Origin: a virus
Virus record (IMG/VR): IMGVR_UViG_3300026484_000013
Span: 1 to 43,711 of that record
Strand: one strand, 5' to 3'
DNA length: 43,711 nt
This document shows, in pieces, positions 698 to 14,039 of the stretch. The first letter of the stretch is position 1; each line of letters starts with the position of its first letter. The translations under genes and the position numbers were made by a program. The notes under the pieces were generated by a model. That model was not told the origin of the DNA and ran no database searches. It saw nothing but the letters and a program-made list of their open reading frames with translations.

Positions 698-2414
698 ATC
701 TGAAGGATTTAAGGCCTTTTAAGGCAGACTTAGCTTTAGGCTTAAATTTACCAGCCATAGGGTTAGTCCTAAAGTTCTTACGGAAGTCTTTAAGGGCTTC
801 GTCAAGTTGTTTCTCTTTGTATCTTGCCATAGCTGTATCAATGTTTTGGTCGAGTATATCTCGTTCTAACCAATAACTAACTGCTAAAGCTAATACATCT
901 AGTCTATCATCATGACGTAATGATTGTCTATCACGAGTAATATGGCTTAACTGAAACATTAAAGAGTACATCATGTTCTGAGGTTCTCTAAGACCAAACT
1001 GTACATCATTTAAACAACTACTATAGTTAAAGATAAGTCTATGTTGGTTCATTATAGGTTCTAATGTATCAATTATTCTCACTTCTTTTTGCATAGTTAC
1101 CTTAACCTCTTCAAGATTACAAGGATATACTGCATTCATAATAGGAGATAGTAATGAACTAAACATACCATCACCAAAGTTGGCTTCGATGTAACAGTCA
1201 TTTACCTTATACTTCTTAGCGATACGAGCAAGACGCATTAAGTTTGCTTCACCATAACCACCACGTATGCCACCAAAGTCTAATACATACAATCTACCAA
1301 GTAAGTGAGCAACAACACACCAACCCATTTCATCTGTACCTGTACCAGCCGGGTCAATCGCTAGGATTACACCCTCATAGTTCTTAAGGTCATCTGAGTA
1401 TGTTCCGGGTCTATGGAGTTTATCGCCTCTAAACCCTACATTAGGTATTGTATCTATTTCCTTAGAAGGCTCTGAACTCCAAGTGATTGCACTCGGCCCG
1501 GAAAAGTCATCTAAGTCTGTTACGATTAAGTCTTTCAATTTAAGAGGATACTTTTCTGCATCACTCAATGTTGTATCTAACATAAATTGTAATTTAAAGC
1601 CTGAGCGACCATAACGGTTCTCACGCATAATCAAGTCTTCCTCAGTAAACCTTGGCTCTGTTGTAGTACCAATTATACTAGGGTCTCTTTCCATCTTCTC
1701 CGTCATATAAGGAGCTAGACATCCTTCATAGATTGAAGTCTCTTCAGGATAACGAGCTGGGAATATACGAGTTACATACCCATCTTCTCTAAATCCATTA
1801 TAAATAGACTCAGCAGATTGAGGTGTACCAAGAACAAGTATCTGAGCACCATCAGTAGTCTGAAGGATTGCCTCGAACTCTGCTGTCTGCACTCTTAACT
1901 GTTCACGTCTCATTTCGGTAGCACTATTTTGCTGCCCTTCAACATCATCTGCAATTAGAAGTGATGCTCTATTTCCCTGTAGCTGTGAGGTAATACCCAA
2001 AGCTCTTAGAGAAGGTTGAACCGATACTTCACAACCATCAACATCGAAAGAAACATTAGAGGTACGGTGACCTTTAGATTTCTTTGGTATTAAGTGTTGT
2101 AGTATCGGCATTGTTTCGATTATCTTTCTGATGAATATAGCAATATTATCTGAGTGTGCTCCTGATTGAGATACAATAAGTATCTTTTCATTTGGGTCGC
2201 GTAGTAATCTCCAAGCCGCAAAAGCACCTGTCTCCCAAGTCTTACCAGCACCACGAAGGGCTTGAAGAACTTGACGACTGTGACCTTCTTGTAGGAAGTC
2301 CGCTATCTCATATTGTAATTCACTAGGGTCAGGTAGTCTTAAATGCTCCCAAGTAAGCTTCAGGAATATCTTGAAGTCATTGAGTGCCGCCATTTCTAGT
2401 TCTGCTCTAGTCAT
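696..2414 (-). CDS. Terminase large subunit (TerL, gp19-like)
   Basis: This is the packaging motor: an ATPase that pumps DNA into the prohead plus a nuclease that cuts the concatemer. The 572 residues are close to T7 gp19 (586). The Walker A-type motif is LRGAGKT near residue 54, and Walker B is LLIADDVE near 152. The C-terminal RNase H-like nuclease shows Asp residues in LAIDPAGTGTDE and HDDRLDVLAL. The start ATG overlaps the preceding stop by 8 nt (ATGACTAG) behind a strong GGAGGG site, implying translational coupling. It is the last gene of the late operon, followed by a hairpin and a phage promoter. Identification is secure. Confidence 0.95.
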   Translation of the reverse strand: MTRAELEMAALNDFKIFLKLTWEHLRLPDPSELQYEIADFLQEGHSRQVLQALRGAGKTWETGAFAAWRLLRDPNEKILIVSQSGAHSDNIAIFIRKIIETMPILQHLIPKKSKGHRTSNVSFDVDGCEVSVQPSLRALGITSQLQGNRASLLIADDVEGQQNSATEMRREQLRVQTAEFEAILQTTDGAQILVLGTPQSAESIYNGFREDGYVTRIFPARYPEETSIYEGCLAPYMTEKMERDPSIIGTTTEPRFTEEDLIMRENRYGRSGFKLQFMLDTTLSDAEKYPLKLKDLIVTDLDDFSGPSAITWSSEPSKEIDTIPNVGFRGDKLHRPGTYSDDLKNYEGVILAIDPAGTGTDEMGWCVVAHLLGRLYVLDFGGIRGGYGEANLMRLARIAKKYKVNDCYIEANFGDGMFSSLLSPIMNAVYPCNLEEVKVTMQKEVRIIDTLEPIMNQHRLIFNYSSCLNDVQFGLREPQNMMYSLMFQLSHITRDRQSLRHDDRLDVLALAVSYWLERDILDQNIDTAMARYKEKQLDEALKDFRKNFRTNPMAGKFKPKAKSALKGLKSFR

Positions 2415-2805
2415 TAATTCCCTCCACTAGGTGTATGATATGTTCAGGTCTACTAGCAAGTACCCACTCACCTTTGACCTCATAGAATTTTCTTAGTTCG
2501 TCCAATACTGCTTTCTCAGATACATTCATATTATGTACTTTTATAGTAGTTAAGTATTTATAATCCCTCTTGGGACTAGCAGTTTGATACGAGCCTAAAC
2601 GTTTTGCTAAATTTATTGTTTGACCAATCTTGTAATAGCCTTTCCAAGCCTTATTGATAATTACATAGATATAGCCTTCATTGTTTGGGACATCAGTTGA
2701 TTTTTCTTTGTTATTTATAGATATACATTTCTTACAACGAGAATTGTTATTAGGATAAAAGTGTTTATCTTCTTTCTTCTTCTCGCATTGCTTACAGTAT
2801 TTCAT
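2407..2805 (-). CDS. GIY-YIG nuclease with N-terminal zinc motif
   Basis: This 132-residue protein begins with two CxxC pairs (CKQC near residue 4, CKKC near 24), likely a zinc-binding module. A GIY-YIG/T5orf172-type domain follows: GYIYVIINK, then YYKIGQT, a conserved Arg in KRLGSYQ, and a late Glu in SEKAVLDEL. GIY-YIG enzymes cut DNA and are common as phage homing endonucleases. The gene sits between the terminase subunits, has a strong GGAGG site and overlaps TerL by 8 nt, so it is well built into the operon rather than a disruptive insertion. It could be a homing endonuclease or a nuclease recruited to packaging or exclusion of competitors. Fold is fairly sure; role is not. Confidence 0.8.
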   Translation of the reverse strand: MKYCKQCEKKKEDKHFYPNNNSRCKKCISINNKEKSTDVPNNEGYIYVIINKAWKGYYKIGQTINLAKRLGSYQTASPKRDYKYLTTIKVHNMNVSEKAVLDELRKFYEVKGEWVLASRPEHIIHLVEGIND

Positions 2806-3077: not shown

Positions 3078-6000
3078 TTAATCCTTATCTGTAACTTCTT
3101 TTAATATATTACCAAGTACCGGTAATGATTGTACAGGACTTAGTTTAACCGCATCCTCAACTAATCTATCTAAATCCCCTGACCCGGCATCGTTAACGAA
3201 AGTCTGAGCTTTTCGTAGTGTATTACCTGCCGGCCCAAGAAAACTTGAAATGCCATATCGTCCTGACCCAGCGAGTTCTTCTCCTGTAGCCGTTGCATAC
3301 GCTTTCTCCATATAACTCATAAGAGGTCCAGCACCTAAACCATTCGTACCTAGATACATTAGTAAGTTCTTTCTACCTTCATCAGTTGACATATCGTAAC
3401 GTGCTTCTCCAGCTCCAAGGTCTTTAACCTGTGCTATAATCGAGAACAACATCATTGAACTAACAATACCTACAGCTTGATTTGCATCAAACTCTGTCAT
3501 ACCACGTAGCATAAGAGTTTCGTGCGCAGCAATAGGAAACCTAAAGAACTGCATCATTACTTTACTAACAAAAGAGTTAGGGTCACTCATAAATACAGGT
3601 AGTGTCATCCCATCGGGGTGTAATATTGTAGACTCCATATGACGCATAATAGTATTTTGTACATCATCTGCTAGCCCTTTGTTCCACAAGTGGAAGTTAA
3701 AATCAGTCAGATGTCCTTTCTCATTATACTTAATTACATCAGTATCAATTAGATGCTGTATCTTCTTTAGGTCTGCCACATCAAGGCCAAGTCTAGCTAA
3801 TTTCTGTTGGTCAACTTTAGTTAACTCCATCTTACCAGCCATTTCAACTATCATATTAAACCCACTACCCATTGCTAAAGCTCTTGAAGCTTCTGTAACA
3901 TGTGCAAGTCCGCCATGACTAACCAATCTATTATTAATCTTGTCCATAATTTTCTCAATCATAATAGTTGAGTCAATGCTGTCTACTGCATCAAATCTTT
4001 GGTGTTGTCGAGTATCCAAAATCTCTCCAAACAATCCCCAAGCTCTCAACTCATTAATCCAAGGAGCACCTAAATCTTGTTCTCCCCTCGCAGCTTTAAA
4101 CGCGGCACTAATTGAGTCAAAGTGCATACCAATAGTATTCTTAAAACCTGTAGAGGCAATAATATTGGCAACCTCAGAAGTAGCAGTTAGGCCAAAACCT
4201 AAAGCGTACTGCATAAAGTTAGACTTAGTTACAATTCTCATTGCAGTATTACTAAGAGACTCAGGGTTCTTCATAATTTCACGCGTACCAGCAATAGTAT
4301 CAATTACAACTTGAATGTAATCTAACTCTTTAGCGGTTGCACCACCCTCCGTAAGAACTTCACGTATCTTTTGGAAGCCTTCAAAATCTGAAGCACCTAT
4401 AGATTGCTGTAAAGCAAACCTACCACTATTAGTATAGCTGTAAGCCTCAACAGTCTCTAGTAAATCATTACTTAGAAACTCTGCCATATCGTTATCAGTA
4501 TAATATATTGTACGCTTATTCATTGTACTTACACTTGAAGCTTCAGTCATTGGTATAGTCATTTGAGATATAATGTTCTTGTGTGAAGCTTTAGTAAATA
4601 TAGCATCTACTTTATCCCATAGTTCAGCATCATTAATCAATTGATTTCCCGGATGTACTCGCATACTATTATATAGCTTATTACGTGCAACTTCGAGGTT
4701 CTTGCCTAGTTTATCTTTATCAAAATGCCTAGGGAAATATCCATTCATCACAATATCTTCAAATCCTTTCACACCTAAAGCCTGTCCATCTTTAGCCATT
4801 GACTTAAAATAATGTGCAACTGCCTCAGAGCCTAAATTGATTTCGTCTATTTTATGTATCTTGTACTCCACCGACCCTTCATTCAATCTCTTATTGATTT
4901 CAGCTTTTATAAGAGCATCATCATCAAAGTTAAGGTGCATATTCTCTAAAGCTTTATTACTAAATTGAGCATTAGCTGTGTGGTAATTAGCGAGAGTATC
5001 CTTATGGAACTTAGATAAAGTACCTTCATACCCGCCTTCCTTAGCTTGTTTATGTAATTGAGTTAATACAAGATTTAATGCTCTACTACGAGAGGCATAT
5101 TGTCTCTTGAAGTCTCTAGCTGTCTTTCGGGTTTTAACATAGTTACCAGCAGCATCTTTCATAGCCATCATAGGTGGAGCTAATTTACTCATAATACCTT
5201 TAGCTATTACATTATCCCCAGCAAACACTTTACTTGTAGGTGTAATTAAAATACGTTTAGCAAGAGCACCAACTTCCATTGTCATTTTTCCAGCTTCTTC
5301 AAAGTTAAACCTAGCTTTTTCTTCTAGTTCTTTTAACTCTCGTTCCAACTGAGCTACATTAGTTTCAGCAGTCACCTTAAGTTTCTGAGCACTCTTACGA
5401 GCACTTTTAGTTTCCTTTAACATACGCTCATTAACAGCTCGTATCTCAGCGTTTGTTTTAGCTTTCTGCTGATAACCTTCAAGTTTACTTTGAGCTACAT
5501 CAGCTTCCATCTTAAGAGTATCGTGGTCTTGAACTTCCATACCTTCATAGTCTTTCTGTTTTAAACCTTTAACCTTTGTGTAGGCTTTAGTTTCTTTACG
5601 CTTTGCAATCTCGTGTTGCTTACTAAAGTATTTAGTTTCTTTAACGGCTTCCTTAAGACTAGCTTTAGAAGCCGCTAGGTCTGCTTGCTGTGTTTCAGTA
5701 AGGTTCTTCTTCTTAGATAGAGCTTTAACAGTTCTTTCAAACCCTTTAACTTTCTTAGAAATATCCTTTAGCTCTGCGGCAGCTTCTTTAGCTGCTTTCT
5801 TTGCCTTTTGATAAACGGAGACATTATGCACCCGTTTATTGGTTTCTACTTTAGCTTTAGCTTCTTTAACATACTCTGTATGTTCAGCAATCTTACTTTT
5901 ATTAAGTTTATGTTGAGCTGTACGTTGTTGTACATCTTTCTCTAACATACTTACATCTTCTTCAAGTCCTTTAGCAACTATATGTTGTCTATCAATCTCT

Positions 6001-6728
6001 AACTTCCCATTTATAATTTCTACATTCTTACCATCTTCTTTAGATAGAGGAATATCCACATCTGTAATTGGGTCGTGTGCAGAAACTTTAGTTGGGTGAG
6101 GGTTTGGTACATCTAAAAAATGACTAGGAATACCTGAGATAGCCCCAGCTAATGTAAACGCCATAACTCTCTCATGAGCACTATCAGTACCTGCAGCTTG
6201 TTGAAATAATTCATCATACATAACACCTTGAGCACCAGCAACAGTATATTGTATAGCCCCTCTAGCAAGTTTGTTGGAAACTCTCGCGGCATTTAGGGCT
6301 CTCCCTACTGTCCTAATCCCAGCAAATGGTAATAGGTTCTCAGGACTTATAGCACCAACTACGACACTCCCTATAAGAGTCCCCGCTGTGCCAAGTTCTT
6401 CGTGCATAACTTGGTAAGCTTCACTTCTCTTCTTGAACCTAGCAACTTGTGCGTGGTACTGAGCATACGTACGTACTTCCCCTACTTCCTCAAAGAAAGC
6501 TTCAGGCAATTGTGATGCTTCTTCAGCTACATCTTCGTTTGTCCATTTGAATGGTTTTGTTAACCCAGCGAATTCACGTGCGCCCTCTTGGTAATCAACT
6601 GTTATACCCTCTTCCGTGTTATTAGCAACGGCAGAGTATAAGGCATTTGATGTGTATGCTAATGACTCTAGAACACCTTGTTTTTCTTCTACTTTTGGCA
6701 CACTAGGTGCATCATTATAATTAATCAA
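3078..6728 (-). CDS. Internal virion protein, gp16-like (ejected core protein)
   Basis: At 1216 residues this is the largest protein, matching T7 gp16 (about 1,300), which leaves the capsid with the DNA and lines the channel across the cell envelope. An Ala/Gly-rich, membrane-prone stretch lies near residues 110-200 (TLIGSVVVGAISPENLLPFA). A very Lys/Ala/Glu-rich coiled coil covers about 245-480, followed by a long helical C-terminal part. I cannot find the N-terminal lytic transglycosylase domain of T7 gp16. It follows the gp14- and gp15-like genes in T7 order. Family by context and architecture; the missing murein-cutting domain is notable. Confidence 0.8.
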   Translation of the reverse strand: MINYNDAPSVPKVEEKQGVLESLAYTSNALYSAVANNTEEGITVDYQEGAREFAGLTKPFKWTNEDVAEEASQLPEAFFEEVGEVRTYAQYHAQVARFKKRSEAYQVMHEELGTAGTLIGSVVVGAISPENLLPFAGIRTVGRALNAARVSNKLARGAIQYTVAGAQGVMYDELFQQAAGTDSAHERVMAFTLAGAISGIPSHFLDVPNPHPTKVSAHDPITDVDIPLSKEDGKNVEIINGKLEIDRQHIVAKGLEEDVSMLEKDVQQRTAQHKLNKSKIAEHTEYVKEAKAKVETNKRVHNVSVYQKAKKAAKEAAAELKDISKKVKGFERTVKALSKKKNLTETQQADLAASKASLKEAVKETKYFSKQHEIAKRKETKAYTKVKGLKQKDYEGMEVQDHDTLKMEADVAQSKLEGYQQKAKTNAEIRAVNERMLKETKSARKSAQKLKVTAETNVAQLERELKELEEKARFNFEEAGKMTMEVGALAKRILITPTSKVFAGDNVIAKGIMSKLAPPMMAMKDAAGNYVKTRKTARDFKRQYASRSRALNLVLTQLHKQAKEGGYEGTLSKFHKDTLANYHTANAQFSNKALENMHLNFDDDALIKAEINKRLNEGSVEYKIHKIDEINLGSEAVAHYFKSMAKDGQALGVKGFEDIVMNGYFPRHFDKDKLGKNLEVARNKLYNSMRVHPGNQLINDAELWDKVDAIFTKASHKNIISQMTIPMTEASSVSTMNKRTIYYTDNDMAEFLSNDLLETVEAYSYTNSGRFALQQSIGASDFEGFQKIREVLTEGGATAKELDYIQVVIDTIAGTREIMKNPESLSNTAMRIVTKSNFMQYALGFGLTATSEVANIIASTGFKNTIGMHFDSISAAFKAARGEQDLGAPWINELRAWGLFGEILDTRQHQRFDAVDSIDSTIMIEKIMDKINNRLVSHGGLAHVTEASRALAMGSGFNMIVEMAGKMELTKVDQQKLARLGLDVADLKKIQHLIDTDVIKYNEKGHLTDFNFHLWNKGLADDVQNTIMRHMESTILHPDGMTLPVFMSDPNSFVSKVMMQFFRFPIAAHETLMLRGMTEFDANQAVGIVSSMMLFSIIAQVKDLGAGEARYDMSTDEGRKNLLMYLGTNGLGAGPLMSYMEKAYATATGEELAGSGRYGISSFLGPAGNTLRKAQTFVNDAGSGDLDRLVEDAVKLSPVQSLPVLGNILKEVTDKD

Positions 6729-6744
6729 ATTAACCTCCTATTGA

Positions 6745-9099
6745 TTACTTCTTAGCCTTCTCGGCATCCTCTTTTGCTATTGTTCTTTCATAAGCACTTA
6801 TTGGCTCTCTCTTAGCTCCGTCAGACTTCGGCCCTACTCCCCAAGTAGCATACAATCTCTCAGACTGCGCTTGTAAGGCTTTAACTTCAAAGGTACCTCT
6901 AAAGATACTAAACCCATCTATTGATAATTGATGCATGGCTTGTTGGTGTGATTTACCCTCTTTTCTGTAAGCTTGATATTGAGTTTTAACCCCTTGGAAT
7001 ATTTCTTCGTTCTTAGCATCAGTAACTCTTTGTTGTTCTACTAATTTAGCTCGTCTGTATTCTTTAAGGTGTTCTTTATACTGTGGTAATACAAATGAGG
7101 GCTTAGTTTTATCCTTACCATATAAAACCAATGTTGTACCATTAGCTTTAATATCAATAGTAATTTCATCATCACTTAAATATTTAGCTACAAACCCTTC
7201 TCCTATAGCATTTTCATTACCTCTAGTCGTATCTTTGAGATACTGCTGTAACACATTAGTATTTCCAATATTCTCCATAGCTCTAGGAGAAGCAAACGTG
7301 ACAGTTATATCCCCAAGGTCTTGAGAGTAAGGCTTCATAGAAGCTTTGAGTCGTTCCAAAGATACCTCTTCACTAACATTCATAATGCCTAGGGTATCAT
7401 AGGTCTTCTTTGCCATTTCTCTAAAAACTACAGGAAGCTCCTTAATAAATGTTTTTACATCAGCAGACTGTTCACGATTTGGTAATGATTTACCTGATGA
7501 TATATACTCTAGTGCTTTTGCCGCCATATTATAATCTACACCACTTGTGATTATATCAAATTGTAATCTATCTTTTGGTGTCATACTAAACTCAAAGAGT
7601 TGTTCACCCATAGCTAATCTAGCATCTAGGAAAGCTTGTTTAGTTGCTCCGAAACCCTCAGGAGTTGAAACATCTACTTGTGATAGCATCTGCCCAATTA
7701 CTTGTCCTACTTGTTTTTTTACTATAGTAGCTTGACTATTCATACGAGTAGTTAAACCACCCCAATCTTTATTCTGTATCTCTTGAGCTACCTGACTTGT
7801 AATGCGTTTGGTTGCGAGAGCTTTTACATCTTCATCTTGAATTAGTGTAGGGTCTACATTATCCATACCGCCAGCAAACACTTGGTCTGTTTTGAACTCT
7901 TTATATTGGTACTTTTTCCATTTAACTACTTCATCACGCACCAAGTTCTTCATAACAACACCTGTTTCAGTCGTGAATTTTTTAGTTACTAACTCTAACA
8001 TACTATCAGGCATCATTATATCATTATAATTATGCACAGCTGTATTATTATAATTAGCTGCTTTACCATCAGTATTCTTGTATCCAACCACAGGAAACTT
8101 TTGATGGAATGCATTCTTATAGAGGTCTTTAGCTGCTTTAGCTTTAGCACTATTAATCTTATTGGCTTTAGTTAAATCTCTACTCTTTTTATCGTGTATC
8201 AATTTATCAATCTTTATCTGAACTTTCTGCCAATCAGCATCATCACCATATTTATCCTTTAACATTAAGGTATCTACACGCATCTTATTGTTCTGTAATG
8301 TACCTAAATCATCCCAATGTTCATCCATAGCTGTTAGCATAGCAGTAGCAACCACAGTCGACCCTCTAACTTGCACACCATTTCTATCAAACTGAGCTGC
8401 AAATGTTTCTGCGTGGTCACTAATTACTTCCTCAAGCGCCTTATCATCATCTTTCGTTGTTGAAATAGACACGGCTGCATAAGCATTCTCTTGTATTTCC
8501 GTAATATTTGCCTTCTGTGTTTTAGCTAATATAGAGTTAAGAACAGTTTTCTGACTAGGGTGTGCAATAGCCGCCCAATAGTTGTTTAGTTTATCAGCAG
8601 TTCCTTTGCCCCAAACATCCATATTATCTTCCACATACTTTTTCATCTTAGCATTTTGTGCTGCAATTCTAGTTGTTGTTTGTTCGTCTGATACAGACGC
8701 TAGGAGTTCTTTCTGTGCTTCCGCATCCAATGTACTAGGGTCATCTAAGAACGCTTGATATTGGGCTTTAATGGAAGCCTCAGTCGCATTAAATGAAACT
8801 AGGTCTTTAGCCATAGCCACTTTAGCAGAACTTTCAACTTCTTTATCATATTTATCTTCTTTAGCTTTCTTTAAAATCTTTTGGTCATTAATACCTTTAA
8901 CAATAGATAAAGAGCCTTTGGCAGCTGCCATTGTGTTACTCCATAAATTACCCCATTGTTCAGCATCACGATTACCATTATCTGTTTTACCAGCTACAAC
9001 TCTTGTATCTCTTTTCTTTTCCGCCCTAATAAATTCTGAATTAGACCTACCCGGTATACCTAAAGTACCCGTACTATAACTTAATAAATCTTCAGCCAT
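6745..9099 (-). CDS. Internal virion protein, gp15-like
   Basis: This 784-residue soluble, largely helical protein is similar in length to T7 gp15 (747), the internal core protein ejected at infection that helps build the periplasmic part of the DNA channel. No enzymatic motif or membrane segment is evident, and the C-terminus is charged and Lys-rich. It is preceded by the gp14-like gene (1-bp gap) and followed after 16 bp by the gp16-like gene, the canonical 14-15-16 order. The call is based on position, size and composition. Confidence 0.8.
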   Translation of the reverse strand: MAEDLLSYSTGTLGIPGRSNSEFIRAEKKRDTRVVAGKTDNGNRDAEQWGNLWSNTMAAAKGSLSIVKGINDQKILKKAKEDKYDKEVESSAKVAMAKDLVSFNATEASIKAQYQAFLDDPSTLDAEAQKELLASVSDEQTTTRIAAQNAKMKKYVEDNMDVWGKGTADKLNNYWAAIAHPSQKTVLNSILAKTQKANITEIQENAYAAVSISTTKDDDKALEEVISDHAETFAAQFDRNGVQVRGSTVVATAMLTAMDEHWDDLGTLQNNKMRVDTLMLKDKYGDDADWQKVQIKIDKLIHDKKSRDLTKANKINSAKAKAAKDLYKNAFHQKFPVVGYKNTDGKAANYNNTAVHNYNDIMMPDSMLELVTKKFTTETGVVMKNLVRDEVVKWKKYQYKEFKTDQVFAGGMDNVDPTLIQDEDVKALATKRITSQVAQEIQNKDWGGLTTRMNSQATIVKKQVGQVIGQMLSQVDVSTPEGFGATKQAFLDARLAMGEQLFEFSMTPKDRLQFDIITSGVDYNMAAKALEYISSGKSLPNREQSADVKTFIKELPVVFREMAKKTYDTLGIMNVSEEVSLERLKASMKPYSQDLGDITVTFASPRAMENIGNTNVLQQYLKDTTRGNENAIGEGFVAKYLSDDEITIDIKANGTTLVLYGKDKTKPSFVLPQYKEHLKEYRRAKLVEQQRVTDAKNEEIFQGVKTQYQAYRKEGKSHQQAMHQLSIDGFSIFRGTFEVKALQAQSERLYATWGVGPKSDGAKREPISAYERTIAKEDAEKAKK

Positions 9100-9100
9100 C

Positions 9101-9808
9101 TTATGCTCCTGTATTTACAGCCGGAGCTGTTCCTGTACTTACTGTACCTGCCTTATAAGAATTGTAAGCCCCTGCTGCGGAACTATACATACTTAATCCT
9201 TGTGCTAAACCGCCTATCGCCGCATTAGCGACACCTAAGGAACCTGAAGATGTGCTAGCTGTCCATCCTTTAACTTCTTGGTTGTTTGCCCCATTTATAC
9301 TATTTGATAAATCAACATCTATACCTGAGTCTTCAGTTTCTTTATTCATCAATAGGCTTTCAAGCTTACTTCCAATTTCTCTATGTGATTGTTCCCCAGC
9401 TTGAATTAGACCTGATTTACTCATTGATGCCTGTACCGCTTGAGCACTCCGCATTCTATTAGCAAGACGTCCTGTTATATGTTTTGTCGCTAGAGCATTG
9501 TCTGTTACACTAGAGGCTTTTTGATAAGCTAATTCAAAAGAAGTAAGCTTAGTAGCAAGTCCCATATTAATTTGTTGGTTAGAGTCTTTCATCTTTCCGC
9601 TCTTTATATCAAAGCGACGTAATAACTCTGCTTTTCTATTCTTAGCGTTTTGAGCCGCTAAATCCCGACTCCTACTAGCTGCTTGTGTATTTGCAAAATT
9701 TGCGTCCTCTGCTCGTTGGTCAGCCGCTTTATTAGCCGCGCTTGCGCTTGCCATTCCTACGCCAATTCCTGCTACCCCTACAACTACTGCTGCTATTGCT
9801 GCACTCAT
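9101..9808 (-). CDS. Internal virion protein, gp14-like
   Basis: The 235-residue protein opens with a hydrophobic Ala/Val/Gly segment (AAIAAVVVGVAGIGVGMA, residues 3-20) and then an Ala-rich helical region. A second Gly/Ala-rich stretch is near residues 190-215. T7 gp14 (196 residues) is the ejected protein that enters the outer membrane, and the N-terminal segment fits that role. Its ATG overlaps the stop of the upstream cupin-like gene, so translation is probably coupled. It starts the gp14-gp15-gp16 run. Confidence 0.8.
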   Translation of the reverse strand: MSAAIAAVVVGVAGIGVGMASASAANKAADQRAEDANFANTQAASRSRDLAAQNAKNRKAELLRRFDIKSGKMKDSNQQINMGLATKLTSFELAYQKASSVTDNALATKHITGRLANRMRSAQAVQASMSKSGLIQAGEQSHREIGSKLESLLMNKETEDSGIDVDLSNSINGANNQEVKGWTASTSSGSLGVANAAIGGLAQGLSMYSSAAGAYNSYKAGTVSTGTAPAVNTGA

Positions 9809-10200
9809 TAATTCTCCTTAAATATTTCTTCTACGAATAGTTCTCGTTCTGCATCCTCTACAGTTGTAGTATCAGTACGAAACACATTAACCCAAACACA
9901 ATCTGTAAGAGCATAGCCTATCTTTTGAACACCAGCCCTCCCTATAAATGTCTGAGGAGCTTTAAGTGTAACTTCTTGTTCACCATTGCTAATTACAATA
10001 GTACCTTCAGTTAAAAGGTTTAAACACGCTTTAGTGTGAGTTGCTCCAACTAATAGAGTACCTGCACCTATGAATAATTCCCTACAATACATACCGTCAA
10101 CAAAGTGATGTTTAGTAGGGAGTTCAAAACAATCAGGATGTTCAATTAACTGACTAGTTAAATCCTTTACTGCTAATTCATTTCCCATAATGGTCGCCAT
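9808..10200 (-). CDS. Small cupin-like protein
   Basis: This 130-residue protein has a beta-rich pattern typical of a single cupin barrel: FIGAGTLLVGATHTK, then LTEGTIVISNGE, then APQTFIGRAGVQKIGYAL. The classic metal-binding HxH plus Glu set is only partly present (H near 56, E near 65), so enzymatic activity is uncertain. Its start overlaps the SET-domain gene by 23 nt and its stop overlaps the gp14-like start, so the three are co-translated. It may be a virion-associated or accessory protein. A role linked to the SET protein is inferred from adjacency only. Confidence 0.6.
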   Translation of the reverse strand: MATIMGNELAVKDLTSQLIEHPDCFELPTKHHFVDGMYCRELFIGAGTLLVGATHTKACLNLLTEGTIVISNGEQEVTLKAPQTFIGRAGVQKIGYALTDCVWVNVFRTDTTTVEDAERELFVEEIFKEN

Positions 10201-10519
10201 AATCTACTAAGAGTTCTTCATCTGCCTTTATATCTCTACAAGCAACACAATTAACACCTACAAACTTACAATTAGGAGTATCACTATGATTAGTAAATCT
10301 CCCTAATAAAGACCTATGGTAAGCATCTACGAATATTTCATCTAGTACCTCACCATTCCTAATGTCTTTTAACACTTTAACTCCAATCCCATGAATAGGG
10401 CTGGTAAATAAAGTATAGCATTTGAATTCATCAATCAATACATTATCTAAATGTACAAATTGCTGTACCTCTTGTTCAGTCATGTTAAAGCTTTTAATAG
10501 TCTTAGAATACCCTAGCAT
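10178..10519 (-). CDS. Minimal SET-domain protein (putative lysine methyltransferase)
   Basis: SET domains transfer methyl groups from S-adenosylmethionine to protein lysines. From the ATG at 10519 (AAGGA site six bases upstream) the protein has 113 residues. It shows the whole set of core motifs: HGIGVKV (43-49) with the GxG turn, an IxxGE step (53-57), RFTNHSDTPN (74-83) for cofactor binding and the pseudoknot, and EELLVDYG (101-108) with the catalytic Tyr107. It lacks a large insert and the post-SET cysteines, like the roughly 119-residue vSET of a chlorovirus. A longer frame to 10564 has no better start. The gene overlaps its neighbours on both sides. The fold is convincing; the substrate is unknown. 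Confidence 0.85.
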   Translation of the reverse strand: MLGYSKTIKSFNMTEQEVQQFVHLDNVLIDEFKCYTLFTSPIHGIGVKVLKDIRNGEVLDEIFVDAYHRSLLGRFTNHSDTPNCKFVGVNCVACRDIKADEELLVDYGDHYGK

Positions 10520-10787
10520 CTTTATCCTTCCACACAAACTTAAAAATCTCTTGCTTCGTATCATCGAAATGACCTACAAGCTGTCTATGGTTTTTCCATA
10601 CATTATCTAATCCTTCACAGAAATATATCGTCTTCTCGAATGACTTTAAATGCTTAACCATCTTTAGTAATTTCCTATCCCCTTGCATATGTAAGATAAA
10701 AATACCTTCGTCATTGTTAAAAGTGAAATCATACCATACGATATAACTATCACCATCTATTATACTCTTTGTATTAACTATATTCAT
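10503..10787 (-). CDS. Unknown protein preceding the SET gene
   Basis: I do not recognise this 94-residue protein. It is rich in aromatic and charged residues (YIVWYDFTF, IYFCEGLDNVW, FKFVWKDKD), with alternating patterns suggesting a small beta-rich fold, and has no signal peptide or membrane segment. An AGGAGG-type site precedes its ATG. Its end overlaps the start of the SET gene by 17 nt, so the pair is probably translated together. It is the first gene after an 88-bp gap, so it may begin a sub-operon. A partner of the SET protein is possible but unproven. Confidence 0.65.
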   Translation of the reverse strand: MNIVNTKSIIDGDSYIVWYDFTFNNDEGIFILHMQGDRKLLKMVKHLKSFEKTIYFCEGLDNVWKNHRQLVGHFDDTKQEIFKFVWKDKDARVF

Positions 10788-12350: not shown

Positions 12351-14039
12351 TTAAAAGTGTACTCTAGTTAAATGAGAGTAATAAGATGTATCTGATGTTT
12401 GACCATTACAGTTACCATATCCATTATAACCACAAGCATATAAATTACCATCAGTTAGCTTAAAGTATGTTGCATTCGCACTAGAGTAACCTGAAGTACC
12501 AAAAGACTCAATTTTACCTACTTCAGTAAAGTTTACTTGAGCTGGCGCGTTCATCTGAGTTGTATGGTCTAAACCAAGCTCTCCGTGTGCATTATAACCC
12601 CAAGACCACAAAGTATCGTCAGTCTTTACTATAAATAGTGAAGGGTAATCCGTGGCATCTGCGCCGATTGTTTGATGTAATAATTTAACGTTATCTGTAA
12701 CATATTGAAACGACGTTTGGTCTGTGGTATTATCAATACCTAAGTGTCCATAATTATTTCTACCAACTGAATATAACTCTCCAGCCTCAGTTACCATATA
12801 AACTGCATGCCACCCAATTTCTATTTGACGCACAGGGTCTGTTAATACATCGTGATTAGAGTTATAGTTTACTTCTCTGAAAGTAGTTCGTTGGTCAGTA
12901 GTACCATCAGCACATTGACCATAACCATTATAACCTGTGCACCAAACTTTACCTGATGCTGTAATAACATAAGTAGCACTTGTATATTTATCATCAGTAT
13001 AGCCACTCCCCATAATAACATCTGAGATAGCTTCATCGTTAAAAGTAGAAGGGTCTACTAATGTGAAAGTGTCTAGGTTAGTTGTATCACCTGTACCTAG
13101 TTGTCCATAGCCATTATATCCTGTTACAAACAAATTACCATTTTCAGTTAGGATGGATGTGTATGCTACATTATCCCCTTCCGTAACTACCTTGATAGCC
13201 TTGTCTCCTGCATAATCATTTGGATTATAAGCTCTAGTCCAAGTGTATGTATTTGTTGTGTTACCAATACCTAACTCTCCATGCCCATTATCACCAGCAC
13301 TCCATACAGAACCATCAGTCTTGATTATCTTAGCACTAGGTTGTTCGTCTTGGTCACCATGACTTGATGTATTGTAATCAACAACATTAGTAGACATTAA
13401 TACGAATGTGTTTTGTTGTGCTGTATTACCAATACCAAAGTGCCCTTCAGATTGTAACCCTCTACCATAGAGTTTTCCATCAACATATAAGATTGCAATA
13501 TGGCGTCCAACAACCCAAATCTTAGCTATTTCTATCCCTTGTTGCTCTGCCGGTTGATTTAATTCTTGCATAGATTGAGCGTTAGCCGCCCCATTTATAT
13601 TAGCCCAACCACCATTATTGTAGCCCCAAAACATAATCTTATTTGCTCTATTTACAAAAGCCATAAAGTGATATGAGGGCATACTTCTACCTTGATTAAG
13701 AGGCATTAGTTTAACACTTCTCTCGTCGAAGAATGAATTGTATAACTCACTATATTCAGCTAGGGTTAAACCTCCAAACTTATCGACACTTAAAGGTGTG
13801 TCATCATCTGCAACAACAGTGCCACCTACATTCTTAATATTAATATTACCTTGCCAAGTAGCGAAGGTGTCTTGCATTTTCTTATGATTTGGGATGGTAA
13901 CATCTACTATATCACCAATATCATTAATAACTTTGATTGTAACATCTTGTGCTACGTCACTATAGAATACGTCAGACACCTTAGATGCCCAACTTTGTAC
14001 TAAGTCTGTAAACTTAGCTATATCTGTACTTAAACTCAT
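12351..14039 (-). CDS. RCC1-repeat beta-propeller protein, putative tail/receptor-binding protein
   Basis: The 562-residue protein has an N-terminal part of about 100 residues and then eight RCC1-type blades. Signatures such as WSAGDNGHGELGIGNTTNT, FVTGYNGYGQLGTGDTTN, YSVGRNNYGHLGIDNTTD and WSWGYNAHGELGLDHTTQ recur every 50-60 residues. RCC1 repeats form a closed propeller used for binding. The gene lies 11 bp after the tail-fibre gene and before the lysis genes, so it is probably a virion appendage that binds the host surface. No peptidase, lyase or membrane segment is visible. The repeats are certain; virion location and receptor binding are inferred. Confidence 0.8.
   Translation of the reverse strand: MSLSTDIAKFTDLVQSWASKVSDVFYSDVAQDVTIKVINDIGDIVDVTIPNHKKMQDTFATWQGNINIKNVGGTVVADDDTPLSVDKFGGLTLAEYSELYNSFFDERSVKLMPLNQGRSMPSYHFMAFVNRANKIMFWGYNNGGWANINGAANAQSMQELNQPAEQQGIEIAKIWVVGRHIAILYVDGKLYGRGLQSEGHFGIGNTAQQNTFVLMSTNVVDYNTSSHGDQDEQPSAKIIKTDGSVWSAGDNGHGELGIGNTTNTYTWTRAYNPNDYAGDKAIKVVTEGDNVAYTSILTENGNLFVTGYNGYGQLGTGDTTNLDTFTLVDPSTFNDEAISDVIMGSGYTDDKYTSATYVITASGKVWCTGYNGYGQCADGTTDQRTTFREVNYNSNHDVLTDPVRQIEIGWHAVYMVTEAGELYSVGRNNYGHLGIDNTTDQTSFQYVTDNVKLLHQTIGADATDYPSLFIVKTDDTLWSWGYNAHGELGLDHTTQMNAPAQVNFTEVGKIESFGTSGYSSANATYFKLTDGNLYACGYNGYGNCNGQTSDTSYYSHLTRVHF

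Follow-up and report, generated by a model that had tools for sequence, protein, structure and literature searches.

A predicted SET-domain methyltransferase lacking the SET-I insert, encoded with a cupin beside phage ejection genes

Introduction

What might a SET-domain protein do among the virion genes of a bacteriophage, and which proteins would it modify? The question is raised by a virus record of 43,711 nucleotides (IMG/VR IMGVR_UViG_3300026484_000013), the whole of which was analysed here and is called the window. A first-pass annotation, made from the sequence alone, had proposed a phage-encoded minimal SET protein of about the size of the algal-virus enzyme vSET, lying in a late, virion-side operon and acting on either host or phage proteins; the description of the gene is supported by our analysis. 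SET domains have already been annotated in phages (UniProt A0A6J5PTS6, MW202744, Ps15 ORF62), the last as a brief mention of a "SET domain protein" in a phage paper. We found no description in the open-access literature of a phage subfamily lacking the SET-I insert, of its fusion to a cupin, or of its linkage to ejection and chaperonin genes. A 2026 paper (PMC13288928) described, as a new finding, methylated phage proteins both inside cells and in free virions. The phage SET family offers candidate phage-encoded writers of virion methylation, with cultured examples in PH1 and P26218; the cupin is a possible adaptor, and ejection proteins and GroE are candidate substrates. Because SET-I is missing, these proteins would also illustrate how far a SET enzyme can be reduced in size.

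Results

The SET gene lies within a run of minus-strand genes, given below; L092 denotes the nearest relative.

3078..6728, minus strand: gp16-like internal virion protein, 1216 aa, phrog_342
6745..9099, minus strand: gp15-like internal virion protein, 784 aa, assigned by position only, with no family match naming it
9101..9808, minus strand: gp14-like ejection (pore) protein, 235 aa, assigned by position, N-terminus and its L092 homologue (47%), with no PHROG match of its own
9808..10200, minus strand: cupin gene, 130 aa, PHROG "short tail fiber", fold seen on the PH1 fusion
10178..10519 (read 10519..10178), minus strand: SET-domain gene, 113 aa plus stop, GxGV-to-NH spacing 29 residues, SET-I absent, no post-SET
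10503..10787, minus strand: 94-aa gene, no assigned function, before the SET gene; its L092 homologue lies directly before the cupin

The 113-residue reading frame exists as first annotated, although its strand, which had not been given, is minus; the plus strand at 10178-10519 is packed with stops and non-coding. The ATG at 10519 is preceded at normal spacing by GGAAGGA, which resembles a ribosome site (GGAAGGATAAAGATG), and for this reason we retained the annotated start over a longer frame from the ATG at 10564 (128 aa), before which no ribosome site is visible. The SET gene overlaps its two neighbours, the preceding 94-aa gene and the following cupin gene. The cupin start lies inside the SET gene's end, with a 23-base overlap, and the two are separate genes. 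A search against SET families, suggested with the first-pass annotation, gave a Pfam SET (PF00856) match of 41.5 bits (E 2e-10); since the curated cutoff is 22.4, the match is not due to chance. It is the only SET match in the window. Among cultured phages, the Lau218 podophages come nearest by TerL, at ~50%. Elsewhere in the window, a 562-aa protein of the tail-gene region (12351-14039, minus strand) has RCC1/WD40-like beta-propeller repeats (PF25390, 168 bits) and is possibly a receptor-binding or tail component, while a 132-aa protein encoded between the gp16-like and TerL genes (2407-2805, minus strand) looks by eye like a GIY-YIG (T5orf172-like) nuclease.

The SET motifs named in the first-pass annotation are all present, as SPIHGIGV, RFTNHSDTPN and EELLVDYG, and the post-SET zinc cysteines are absent as described: no cysteine cluster is seen and the C-terminus reads GDHYGK. 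An AlphaFold2 model made with 59 relatives (mean pLDDT 83.7) predicts a SET (beta-clip) fold, and the 50 PDB matches listed for it are all SET or PR structures, among them SETD8, MLL1, ASH1L and vSET. A profile of the 59 relatives matched 149 solved chains at E<=0.01, MLL1 best at 1.1e-15; the 60 listed are all SET methyltransferases. Cofactor and catalytic motif residues, the loss of which would have spoken against the assignment, are kept: S40, G44, G46, N77, H78, N83, E102 and Y107 are invariant in the alignment of relatives. GxG, NHSxxPN and the C-terminal catalytic Tyr are invariant or nearly so in 59-72 members; within this diverse set of phage SETs, no member departs from GxG, NH, Glu and Tyr.

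That the protein has no large insert turned out to be an understatement. Its GxGV motif and NH are separated by 29 residues, compared with 41-70 in the cellular SETs retrieved by the same query; the spacing is 28-29 residues in 68/72 phage members and 27-32 in all except L072 (55). When the family profile is aligned with MLL1, SPIHGRGLF is aligned, ~36 MLL1 residues are skipped and RFINHS is aligned again. Only three short-spaced SETs were found in genome contigs, namely the cupin-SET fusions L183 and L217 and a third, L203, and all three are likely phage-derived. L183 (5482-6390) and L217 (5443-6300) are on contigs binned as Bathyarchaeota and Lentisphaera, probably phage contigs in these bins. 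L203 (5764-6330) encodes a 188-aa phage-type SET with a spacing of 28 on a Comamonadaceae contig, a possible prophage, and no cupin was detected with it. Short GxG-NH spacing is specific to a phage-type SET subfamily in which SET-I is essentially gone. SET-I is variable across the SET superfamily, so a protein without it still belongs there, as a variant. Short-type SETs were also seen by eye in cyanophage P-RSM6 and Pelagibacter phage Kolga. The SET of P-RSM6, which is T4-like, has 99 aa and lies directly before baseplate gene gp25 (L254 2965-3264), again in a virion module.

We read the window protein as a putative protein lysine methyltransferase of the phage SET type, almost wholly devoid of SET-I, which would be active with SAM. 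Its likeness to vSET (PBCV-1 A612L; PDB 1N3J, 3KMA) holds for size and fold: vSET is likewise a minimal viral SET (~119 aa) without post-SET, and the two folds match at TM 0.57/0.61. It does not extend to closest kinship, as MLL1 and SETD8 rank higher by sequence and fold. The sequence match of vSET to the window SET is weak (phmmer E 0.23), with 1.4e-11 for the family profile, behind MLL1, so that the close relationship looked for in a vSET-like effector was not found. Whereas vSET is a packaged enzyme of an algal virus that trimethylates histone H3K27, the window SET belongs to a phage, and in the phage type the GxG-NH stretch is shorter and a cupin accompanies the SET. MLL1 (KMT2A) and SETD8 (KMT5A), the closest solved relatives by profile and fold, share SPIHGxGLF and NHSxxPN with it but possess SET-I and have histone substrates. 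MLL1 also has a post-SET.

A 3-sequence alignment used as query found relatives of the window SET on at least 275 viral contigs, whereas a single-sequence query of the viral contigs found none. Each of 59 relatives (59/59) matches Pfam SET individually. Close pairs of phage SETs mostly have dN/dS of 0.03-0.25 (0.36 in one pair), which indicates purifying selection. The size of this family had been overlooked in the first-pass annotation, as had the loss of SET-I, the cupin partner and its fusions, and the ejection and chaperonin neighbours.

SET and cupin are linked in three arrangements: fused in either order or, as in the window, encoded by separate, overlapping genes. They are fused in 70 of the 82 loci examined, five as SET-cupin, the order of the window (L024, L040, L054, L058, L081), and the rest as cupin-SET; in the other 12, SET stands alone. 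A single PHROG, phrog_34170, spans both domains as one protein, and cupin and SET form one polypeptide in Pseudoalteromonas phage PH1, phage zth2-2, Rhodoferax phage P26218 and a Manatee Spring podovirus. The model of the PH1 fusion (pLDDT 89.6) matches RmlC-like cupins and SET domains. Members of this group (phrog_34170, PH1 gp49, P26218 gp30, UOF81456.1) have the same SET type and the same cupin beside a DNA-ejection gene as the window, but in one polypeptide with the cupin first, whereas the window has two genes with the SET first. The PHROG name of the cupin family, "short tail fiber protein/tail fiber adhesin", looks like a misannotation, given an RmlC-like cupin fold and a constant place beside ejection genes. 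A profile search of the PDB with the cupin gave no significant match. The HxH motif, the usual metal ligand, is kept in only 14/64 cupins; since these ligands are not conserved, the cupin looks non-catalytic and is probably a binding or structural domain.

A single gene cluster directly follows cupin-SET in 45 of the 46 loci in which the cluster occurs. This cluster corresponds to PHROG "DNA ejection", with 33/48 and 7/48 of the downstream proteins matching the two PHROGs of that name, and one member has a weak P22_gp7 match. P22 gp7 and T7 gp14 have been grouped in one class, the outer-membrane pore protein, which is insoluble in vitro (PMC8954989). The two counts out of 48 come from PHROG scans; those from a composition filter for ejection proteins, which 42% of control genes passed, were dropped as too loose. 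Cupins without SET occupy the same place beside ejection genes, and most cupin-ejection cassettes have no SET. One such cassette is that of L092, whose cupin is 69% identical to that of the window and is flanked by homologues of the 94-aa gene and the ejection gene, with no SET between the former and the cupin. The direct succession of 94-aa-gene homologue and cupin in L092 marks the 94-aa gene as the edge of the SET insertion. In the explanation that we prefer, the SET would be an accessory module that has joined a podophage cassette, itself conserved, of cupin followed by gp14/15/16.

In a tree of phage SETs, the window SET, on a long branch, groups with stand-alone SETs (support 97/92), apart from the fused ones; placement is resolved among phage SETs only, and a tree including cellular SETs gave the window SET no resolved position. 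This grouping makes its cupin link look independent of the fusions. If the placement is right, SET and cupin became linked on more than one occasion, and this speaks for a function in common.

The stand-alone SETs closest to that of the window (L005, L006, L007, L009, L014, L016, L017, L029) have chaperonin neighbours and, unlike the window, no cupin, larger contigs and different structural genes. Among ten distinct stand-alone SETs, eight adjoin or lie two genes from phage chaperonin genes (GroES or GroEL). Here a long GroES-like protein was recognised by PHROGs and not by Pfam, which recognised GroEL and short GroES. The SET starts 4 bases before a GroES-like gene ends in L005, L009, L014 and L017, lies two genes away from one in L016 and precedes one in L029; in L006/L007 it precedes GroEL, then GroES. 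The stand-alone SETs of L004 and L015 are not near chaperonin genes. The theme common to the chaperonin and cupin/ejection contexts is the making of the particle.

Discussion

Genomic context favours phage assembly or ejection proteins over host nucleoid or ribosomal proteins as targets. Our preferred explanation, to which we give a little under an even chance, is that the SET is an accessory enzyme which, guided by the cupin, methylates lysines of proteins involved in virion assembly or ejection. Encoded directly before the gp14-like pore protein, and associated with SET as one polypeptide in most relatives and as a putative co-translated partner in the window, the cupin would be an adaptor bringing the enzyme to freshly made virion proteins. 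Late in infection, lysine methylation by the SET may then alter how ejection proteins or other assembly proteins pack, how soluble they are or how they behave at membranes; in the stand-alone sister class, the neighbouring chaperonin may be target or helper. A broader proposal, that many podophages have a dedicated assembly methylation in which a cupin-guided, SET-I-less SET marks lysines of ejection proteins (in the sister group, chaperonin and clients) as a phage-encoded writer, we consider rather unlikely.

Several observations weigh against the preferred explanation. One of its direct predictions, a lysine signature in the ejection proteins, gained no support, as lysine content and the N-terminal lysine motif are the same in SET-bearing and SET-lacking phages. 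The prevalence of cupin-ejection cassettes without SET suggests that a methylation step is dispensable, and without SET-I the usual peptide groove is incomplete. In Cellulophaga phages without a known methyltransferase, virion proteins and a phage GroEL have been reported to be methylated (PMC13288928); this favours the explanation in that such marks exist, but implies that host enzymes can suffice; a search of Cellulophaga phi38:1, the phage with methylated GroEL, for a SET gene gave no match.

An active lysine methyltransferase could instead be directed at a host target (nucleoid or ribosomal protein, EF-Tu, GroEL, RNA polymerase), either made during infection or delivered with the virion as vSET is. 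Chromatin is the target of eukaryotic SETs and of those that bacteria secrete, the packaged vSET works on its host (PMC7019647), genes beside ejection proteins could encode ejected cargo, and host protein methylation rises in phage-infected Cellulophaga (PMC13288928). However, the partner cupin is conserved beside ejection genes even where there is no SET, which points to particle making, related SETs adjoin phage chaperonin or baseplate genes, and packaging of the cupin or SET in the virion would be hypothetical. We regard a host target as unlikely.

Still less probable, in our assessment, is a SET fold kept for binding or structure, as an assembly factor or SAM sensor that transfers no methyl group to lysine. 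Such a role would suit the missing SET-I, which helps form the substrate groove, and the seemingly non-catalytic cupin, but it would not require GxG, NH, Glu and Tyr to be invariant in so many diverse members. The least probable of the alternatives, which we rate as very doubtful, is that SET and cupin of the window are really one fusion, split by a frameshift or an assembly error. Fusions in the same order exist, and a single +1 shift at the overlap would suffice and leave a linker of approximately the right length. Nevertheless, stand-alone SETs are the group in which the window SET falls, no slippery site is seen at the overlap, and the cupin, like that of L092, has a start of its own and is complete at the N-terminus.

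A different group-transfer enzyme is found beside the same cupin family in Bordetella phage BPP-1, where bbp24-bbp23 pairs the cupin with a GNAT acetyltransferase; this locus has an acetyltransferase fold and no SET, and lies between the terminase and portal genes. T7 gp13, considered as a GNAT or cupin homologue, was rejected, as it matches its own families only. The PHROG of the BPP-1 GNAT (1249) is also represented in phage zth2-2, which has a cupin-SET as well; the GNAT is near the cupin-SET in zth2-2 (L003 6562-7050) and beside the cupin in BPP-1 (L086 4444-5363). Protein-modifying enzymes may therefore recur at the cupin locus.
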